From an uncultured Oscillospiraceae bacterium (GTDB taxonomy: Bacteria > Bacillota > Clostridia > Oscillospirales > Oscillospiraceae): a stretch of DNA of 35,771 nt. The stretch spans positions 1 through 35,771 of the forward strand of contig CATNCS010000020.1 in assembly GCA_950097245.1 (NCBI GenBank), written 5' to 3'. A program made the translations under genes and the position numbers. Positions 2,688 to 3,281 of this stretch are shown in pieces; the stretch's first letter is position 1; each line of letters begins with the position of its first letter. Under the pieces are notes generated by a model that searched no databases, was not told the DNA's origin, and worked only from the letters and a program-made list of their open reading frames with translations.

Positions 2688-2788
2688 GCTTCAACCGCAA
2701 ATACATTCTTCACCACAAGGAGTATTCGTATCTGCGCGTTTTAAAATAAGCGGGGAAAATCGATTTCCTTTCAGCCCTGCGCCCAAAA

Positions 2789-2900
2789 CCAAACCGCAAC
2801 CCAGCGAAGCGGTTGCGGTTTGGAAAGGAGGAGCAGCGGAATGAGCGCGCTCTGACTTTTGAAAAAAGTCGGAGCAAACGATATGAAGCTTGCTCCGACG
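2789..2900 (-). repeat. tRNA-adjacent hairpin repeat, copy 1 (after tRNA-Lys)
   Basis: The element begins right after the encoded CCA of tRNA-Lys. Reading on the minus strand it holds a terminator-like hairpin (2868-2899), a conserved linker of about 23 nt with the core CGCTCATTCCGCTGCTCCTCC-like sequence, and a perfect 13-bp hairpin (2789-2801 with 2811-2823) with loop CAGCGAAGC (plus strand). A second copy lies at 3175-3281. The two 13-bp stems differ at three positions, and every change is matched on the opposite arm. Confidence 0.7.
2862..2899 (-). terminator. Terminator of the tRNA cluster
   Basis: GTCGGAGCAA.. paired with ..TTTGCTCCGAC, then TTTTTT on the minus strand, starting one base after the tRNA-Lys CCA. 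It is built from the first hairpin of repeat copy 1. Confidence 0.75.
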
Positions 2901-2976
2901 TGGTGACCCGTCGGGGATTCGAACCCCGGACCCACGGCTTAAAAGGCAGTTGCTCTACCGGCTGAGCTAACGGGTC
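2901..2976 (-). tRNA. tRNA-Lys (anticodon TTT)
   Basis: 76 nt with encoded CCA. Acceptor GACCCGT pairs with ACGGGTC; D arm AGCTCAGCCGGTAGAGC; anticodon loop CTTTTAA (TTT); T arm CGGGGTTCGAATCCCCG. Last gene of the minus-strand tRNA cluster. Confidence 0.97.
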
Positions 2977-3028
2977 ATTTTTACATATTTAGAAAGTCAA
3001 ATGCGGACCTCGTTTCCGGCTGACGCCG

Positions 3029-3123
3029 GGCAGTTGCTCATCTCGCCGCCAAGTGCCGCTGTGCGGCGGTTGCGGCTCGAAACGCCCGCCTGCGGGCGGG
3101 TGTACCAACTGAGCTAACGGGTC
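3029..3123 (-). pseudogene. Broken tRNA-Lys-like gene with an insertion
   Basis: On the minus strand 3123-3101 reads as a tRNA 5' part (GACCCGT acceptor strand, TAGCTCAGTTGGTA D arm) nearly identical to tRNA-Lys. About 61 bp of palindromic sequence then intervenes (3040-3100, with CCGCCCGCAGGCGGG and related hairpins). The next 11 nt, GAGCAACTGCC (3029-3039), match tRNA-Lys where it should resume. No anticodon loop, T arm or 3' acceptor follows. It lies between tRNA-Gln and the intact tRNA-Lys and is transcribed with them. The simplest reading is a tRNA-Lys duplicate disrupted by a hairpin-rich repeat. Confidence 0.6.
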
Positions 3124-3174
3124 AAGTATGCAATTTTGCAGGAGAACCTCCTCCGGGCCGCCGCAGGCGGCCCC

Positions 3175-3281
3175 CCAAAACACAAACCAGCGAAGCGTTT
3201 GTGTTTTGGAGAGGAGGAGCAGCGGAATGAGCGAGCTTTCGGCGCAAGCCGGAAGCGAGGGATATGGAGCTTGCGACGACG
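3175..3281 (-). repeat. tRNA-adjacent hairpin repeat, copy 2 (after tRNA-Gln)
   Basis: Starts directly after the CCA of tRNA-Gln with CGTCG, as copy 1 does after tRNA-Lys. It has the 13-bp stem (3175-3187 with 3197-3209), the identical loop CAGCGAAGC, the shared GGAGGAGCAGCGGAATGAGCG segment (about 3212-3232), and a GCTTTCGGC/GCCGGAAGC hairpin at 3235-3256. Unlike copy 1 it lacks the T tract, so transcription can continue to tRNA-Lys. Confidence 0.7.

Follow-up and report, generated by a model that had tools for sequence, protein, structure and literature searches.

Small repeats in bacterial genomes are usually known by sequence only, and their movement is rarely caught. REP and REPIN sequences are thought to move as folded single strands (PMC3733652, PMC8266576, PMC3116915). 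CGTC-REPs have an unpaired CGTC, stems of 8-9 bp and loops of 4-5 nt; the survey lists them in five other phyla, and no dedicated transposase is known (PMC3733652). The window analysed here, a stretch of 35,771 nt from an uncultured Oscillospiraceae bacterium (GCA_950097245.1, contig CATNCS010000020.1), carries two copies of a repeat that belongs to a large and apparently undescribed family of hundreds of copies. A search of the copies against Rfam gave no family above the gathering threshold other than tRNA, rRNA and tmRNA, and we found no description of the family in the literature. On balance, we favour a non-autonomous dispersed mobile repeat that would be recognised in the form of a folded single strand and would land at gene boundaries; one lineage of it has probably been co-opted as a tRNA terminator. 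Nearly all of the evidence is comparative, and sequence does not separate recognition as RNA from recognition as single-strand DNA.

The tRNA operon of the window lies on the minus strand and reads 5' Gly-Arg-His-Gln-Lys 3'. The first-pass annotation had reported two repeats that begin with CGTCG directly behind an encoded CCA. This holds for both tRNA-Lys and tRNA-Gln: each encodes its CCA, and on the minus strand the next letters are CGTCG, with which the repeat ends (at 2900 and 3281). A covariance model had been proposed as a check; we built one (R1), together with the structure, from an alignment of 28 copies (A1), and conservation of the stems holds across copies. The features are:

2788 to 2900, plus strand: element copy 1, type B (terminator type), with its right end adjoining the CCA of tRNA-Lys; R1 score 118.9 bits, E 1.5e-24 in its own genome
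2789 to 2823, plus strand: HP1 of copy 1, a 13-bp stem (2789-2801 with 2811-2823) with a CA bulge and a GC-GAA-GC tip
2827 to 2899, plus strand: P1, P2 and HP2 of copy 1; P1 is 2827-2837 with 2888-2899, P2 is 2841-2843 with 2882-2884, and the enclosed HP2 is 2849-2875 (from alignment A1 and pair counts)
2862 to 2899, minus strand: predicted intrinsic terminator of the tRNA operon, GTCGGAGCAAGC..GTTTGCTCCGAC followed by TTTTTT (from the fold and a terminator scan of 208 copies)
2901 to 2976, minus strand: tRNA-Lys(TTT), final gene of the operon Gly-Arg-His-Gln-Lys (ARAGORN, synteny)
3174 to 3281, plus strand: element copy 2, type A (general type), without terminator, inserted between tRNA-Gln and tRNA-Lys; R1 score 113 bits, E 3.7e-23
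3175 to 3209, plus strand: HP1 of copy 2, stem 3175-3187 with 3197-3209, three compensated changes relative to copy 1
3213 to 3233, plus strand: common core GGAGGAGCAGCGGAATGAGCG, the 5' part of P1 and P2
3282 to 3356, minus strand: tRNA-Gln(TTG) (ARAGORN)

The original description of the two repeats is right in detail. Their 13-bp stems are 100% complementary around an identical 9-nt loop, the stems differ at three pairs that are all compensated, and the shared block contains a 21-nt core found exactly twice in the window, against 0.01 expected by shuffling. One point can be refined: the 9-nt loop is present, but it pairs in itself, through the CA bulge and a GC-GNA-GC tip. The copies, 108-113 nt long, differ in their second half. 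Copy 1 has been remodelled so that the tRNA strand gives a predicted intrinsic terminator directly behind CCA, whereas copy 2 has not. A separate, tRNA-mimicking repeat lies at 3008-3123 on the minus strand; it consists of a tRNA-Lys 5' part (GACCCGTTAGCTCAGTTGGTA) with an insert (CACCCGCCCGCAGGCGGGCGTTTCGAGCCGC..GGCGGCGAGAT) at the D-loop position, then GAGCAACTGCC and CGGCGTCAGCCGGAAACGAGG. The same repeat occurs in the Gln-Lys gaps of L148, L154 and L155, and a similar tRNA-Arg version in L143.

On the plus strand the element is made up of HP1, the long-range stem P1, a short P2 and the enclosed HP2. The 13-bp stem of the bulged hairpin HP1 is hypervariable in sequence yet always paired. 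In P1, GGAGNNGCAGC pairs with GCTTGCNNCGAC, and two tandem G.A pairs are conserved; besides this tandem G.A version, the stem occurs in Watson-Crick and reversed G-C versions. Selection on structure, which had been claimed from the two copies, is borne out by the family. In alignment A1, which was not fitted to the fold, 27 of 38 pairs have changed on both sides, 89% of cells are paired compared with 32-43% in slid controls, and none of 500 shuffles reached the observed values. In an alignment of 116 copies, G.U occupies 257 cells and A.C 40 (two wobble positions provide most of the G.U excess), and tandem G.A occupies 355 cells compared with two for T.C. Thus, selection acts on the fold of the plus strand, and this strand runs antisense to the tRNAs.

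The core, with up to two mismatches, occurred in 61 of 149 related genomes, mostly of the same genus, whereas control patterns were almost empty. Named carriers include Pseudoflavonifractor capillosus An827, Flintibacter muris, Oscillibacter species and the complete genome CCNA10. R1 found 11 copies in the genome of the window, 1-52 copies in each of 59 of 64 congeners, and copies in 66 of 295 sampled Oscillospirales genomes, these 66 belonging to 47 genera in many families. The element is about 110 nt long, and longer in some lineages. Two candidate sets were rejected: core matches with two or three mismatches in the genome of the window (L003 and L004) lie inside coding sequence and are due to chance, and a conserved reading frame from the core ATG is excluded because frames vary among copies. 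A plasmid collection gave no match to the element and a phage collection gave two weak phage-like records; three IMG/VR viral contigs (L372, L373 and L374) contain the core.

Most of the genomes are metagenome assemblies, but the same features are seen in the single-contig genomes CCNA10 and G012 and so are not an assembly artefact. The counts mix related species and are not counts of independent events. The copies listed first were picked by score; a set of five well-assembled genomes with 107 copies is less biased. Recently amplified composite repeats, in which the element carries conserved flanks of up to several hundred nucleotides with further hairpins, were seen in G010 (L273-L292), G054 (L087-L096) and G006 (L097-L105). 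As some recent families share flanks well past the 108-nt element, the moving unit may exceed our model.

A preference for tRNA 3' ends had been predicted, and we find it. Among 208 distinct copies 45 adjoin a tRNA, all by the right end, and 44 of these lie at the tRNA 3' end (CCA) in one orientation, antisense, 36 of them at offset 0; eleven tRNA families are involved. The further suggestion that the element targets tRNAs stands in part. Empty sites in congeners show insertion directly behind CCA, but the element also occurs at other classes of site. In the five genomes, 13 of the 107 copies are at intact tRNA 3' ends, eight have TGG and a terminator but no intact tRNA, four are at tmRNA, one distinct copy is at 23S rRNA and one at a tRNA 5' end; 13 have duplicated flanks, and 67 are without a recognised boundary or duplication. 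Next to tmRNA the element ends 1-4 nt before the mature 5' end in 19 of 29 congener genes examined, the rest having unrelated leaders. For instance, in L043 the element ends at 1569 and tmRNA starts at 1571 (Rfam RF00023, 143.5 bits), and in L219 the element stops 2 nt short of the 5' end of 23S rRNA. The tmRNA genes of this genus escape ARAGORN (L043, L034), though Rfam detects that of L043. Copies end exactly on the right (..CGACG), whereas their left junction varies; orientation at tRNAs is opposite to that at protein genes.

Minus-strand terminators, that is, a GC-rich hairpin and a T-run on the transcribed strand, occur in 32 of the 44 tRNA-linked copies, copy 1 of the window being of this type and copy 2 not, compared with 18 of the 164 other distinct copies (Fisher p 2e-15). 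Of the latter, 14 have kept TGG, which is complementary to CCA, as their first letters. As terminators are concentrated in tRNA-linked copies, the terminator function would be a property of one lineage and not of the family. Judged from its sequence, the terminator-type repeat behind tRNAs plausibly acts as the terminator of tRNA operons. Type B copies resemble intrinsic (Rho-independent) terminators in having a GC-rich hairpin and T-run behind the tRNA CCA on the tRNA strand; they differ in that the terminator is the right part of a larger repeat with a conserved fold on the other strand, and type A copies lack it. Terminator-type copies were also seen next to broken tRNA 3' fragments (L108, L121, L234, L238 and L256), as though part of a tRNA had been carried or copied along with the element.

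Orthologous sites, both empty and filled, were found in the tRNA operon and at pgk-tpiA, rnhA and tmRNA loci. The operon is conserved in 28 congeners. Its tRNA-Gly/tRNA-Arg spacer is 3 nt in most congeners, where it is empty, and about 90-150 nt in four genomes where it is filled; there the element begins precisely at CCA. Between tRNA-Gln and tRNA-Lys, several empty congeners have 9-14 nt; at this place the window has copy 2, and other species have other copies. At the Gly-Arg site we saw no target duplication, and looked for but did not find an inverted copy spanning the site. Comparison of these sequences shows that insertion is clean and real, with gain and loss at orthologous sites.

Insertions next to protein genes are organised differently. 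There the element often lies behind the stop codon, and past its right end the 3' tail of the same gene appears once more; pgk, tpiA, fhs, rnhA, groEL and rplQ, among others, were recognised from C-terminal translations. Significant duplications starting at the right end were found for 20 of 157 non-tRNA copies (13%; a few are tandem copies of the element), whereas mismatched flank pairs never reached this score. They are variable in length, about 30-100 nt. In addition, 10-22 nt of gene sequence from across or beside the insertion point usually recur in inverted form between the stop codon and HP1, and in most duplicated cases this match beats all 100 shuffles. Differences between the left and right tails are mostly synonymous. 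In G030 the right pgk tail is like that of the relatives G001 and G059 and is native, whereas the left tail is foreign; the same is true of rnhA in G027 when compared with the empty G010. Simple target duplication is incomplete on its own, because it leaves the synonymous differences unexplained, which homologous transfer of filled alleles accounts for. The simplest account of these sequences is that an original insertion made a long duplication and that filled alleles were then probably transferred between species by homologous recombination. The pgk-tpiA region also holds a third repeat family, GCGCGGATGGAC(C/T)GRAGCGA..GAGTCGGAGGGAARCCGCGC, behind pgk (L191, L196 and L208), and in L193 yet another insert that duplicates the pgk tail.

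Based on these observations, we propose a model for how the element moves. The exact right end, the variable left end, the long duplication, the fold-back at the left junction and selection on one strand lead us to infer recognition of a single strand by an enzyme acting in trans. The plus strand, as DNA or RNA, would move or be recognised in its folded form by this putative enzyme, and the right end (..CGACG) would be cut or joined precisely. Genes that form terminal stems may offer preferred landing places at their boundaries. Entry near the 3' end of a gene would duplicate the segment between two cuts and so leave the gene intact. Homologous recombination through the duplicated tail could later carry filled alleles from one species to another. 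Last, the lineage behind tRNAs would have evolved an intrinsic terminator on the opposite strand and been kept for it. Two points weigh against the model: most copies (67 of 107 in the five genomes) lie at no recognised boundary or duplication, and the tRNA insertions have no target duplication, so that more than one mechanism may be at work.

Movement through RNA is an unlikely alternative. A reverse transcriptase would copy the folded plus-strand RNA, starting at its exact 3' end (CGACG) and using a nicked DNA end or the 3' CCA of a tRNA as primer, to give exact 3' and variable 5' junctions and long target duplications with fold-back. The exact right and variable left junctions, the duplications of ~30-100 nt, the inverted copies near the left end, the junction exactly at CCA and the conservation of G.U and tandem G.A on one strand are all consistent with this. 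The tRNA insertions without duplications are not, and since the element is antisense at tRNAs, its plus strand is not made from the tRNA promoter. A fuller version is rather improbable: a bacterial SINE-like retroelement whose small folded RNA, with an exact 3' end, was reverse transcribed from tRNA 3' CCA or nicked gene ends as primers, leaving long duplications and fold-backs, and was co-opted as tRNA terminator and tmRNA leader.

It is also quite doubtful that the family is a REP-type element mobilised by the RAYT, a Y1 single-strand transposase, of the same genomes. The element is small and dispersed, with a bulged hairpin followed by GGAG. It occurs together with RAYT-like genes (at least 44 bits) in 32 genomes, half of the genus, and the five element-free congeners lack these genes; at two RAYT loci it lies about 80 nt upstream. 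However, no RAYT is detectable in G006 or G028, with 52 and 28 copies, respectively, and RAYT genes carry other palindromes, tagged GTAGGGCGGG, so RAYT is not consistent as the obvious mover. Both upstream elements are explained by insertion into the tail of the neighbouring gene. Moreover, target duplications are not known for Y1 enzymes. As a separate observation, some RAYT-like genes contain in-frame palindromes (GTAGGGCGGGGGCTTGCCCCCGCC and similar) that add peptides such as VGRGLAPAE or VGGGLRAAP (L167, on contig C19 of the genome of the window at 1259-1891, and L168-L184).

A non-mobile RNA leader or trailer, inherited vertically and selected for termination or processing of tRNA and tmRNA, is very unlikely. 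The terminator in tRNA copies, the position just upstream of 19 of the 29 tmRNA genes and the conserved structure would fit it, but the empty sites largely refute it as the sole explanation, and the gene-tail copies with duplicated flanks and near-identical copies at different places within one genome also speak against it. Finally, scars or minimal forms of tyrosine-recombinase elements, which insert at the 3' ends of genes and complete the interrupted gene with a tail that they carry, would match the restored and displaced tails with their mostly synonymous differences and the choice of tRNA and housekeeping gene 3' ends, but are hardly probable given many unrelated target sites with no shared core, opposite orientations at tRNAs and protein genes, inserts of ~130 nt with no integrase, and foreign left tails that homologous recombination explains equally well.

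Within one genus, this repeat family provides many sites in both filled and empty form; it has an exact end, a hairpin that is hypervariable yet paired, a strong preference for the ends of stable RNA genes, and a duplicated tail with an inverted target copy. With such features, one can work out how it inserts, as well as its probable exaptation as a tRNA terminator, and test both in cultivable Pseudoflavonifractor, Flintibacter and Oscillibacter. Its positions suggest that it bears on the synthesis and trimming of tRNA and tmRNA transcripts in anaerobes common in the gut.

Compared with known systems, the element shares with REP/REPIN sequences and their RAYTs (GTAG family; PMC3733652, PMC8266576, PMC3116915) short dispersed structured repeats, bulged hairpins and a location mostly at gene ends. 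It differs in its 108-nt length, its two-domain fold, the lack of a GTAG tag or constant RAYT association, its exact landing at tRNA and tmRNA and its duplicated gene tails. REPs have an unpaired GTAG or variant at the foot of a short palindrome; here, GGAG on the 5' side of P1 is paired with CGAC via tandem G.A (alignment A1). Like CGTC-REPs (PMC3733652), the minus strand starts with CGTC and then a stem, but the complement of CGTC is inside P1, the stems are 11-13 bp and the minus-strand loop is about 8-12 nt. As the unpaired tag, short stem and short loop are all lacking, we do not file the element as a REP or CGTC-REP. It is unlike MITEs, because its ends, CCAAA.. on the left and ..CGACGACG on the right, do not form inverted repeats and the target-site duplication, instead of being short and constant, is lacking at tRNA sites and variable at gene tails. 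It is also unlike IS200/IS605-type (Y1) elements, which insert 3' of a fixed short target with no duplication, as it has long gene-tail duplications and no fixed left target. ERIC, BOX, Correia and Rickettsia palindromic elements (PMC2229807) are likewise non-coding, non-autonomous and intergenic or sometimes intragenic; the present element has no terminal inverted repeats and another fold, host range and target preference. The family is best called a member of the small structured mobile repeats, with the REP/REPIN group as its closest kind.
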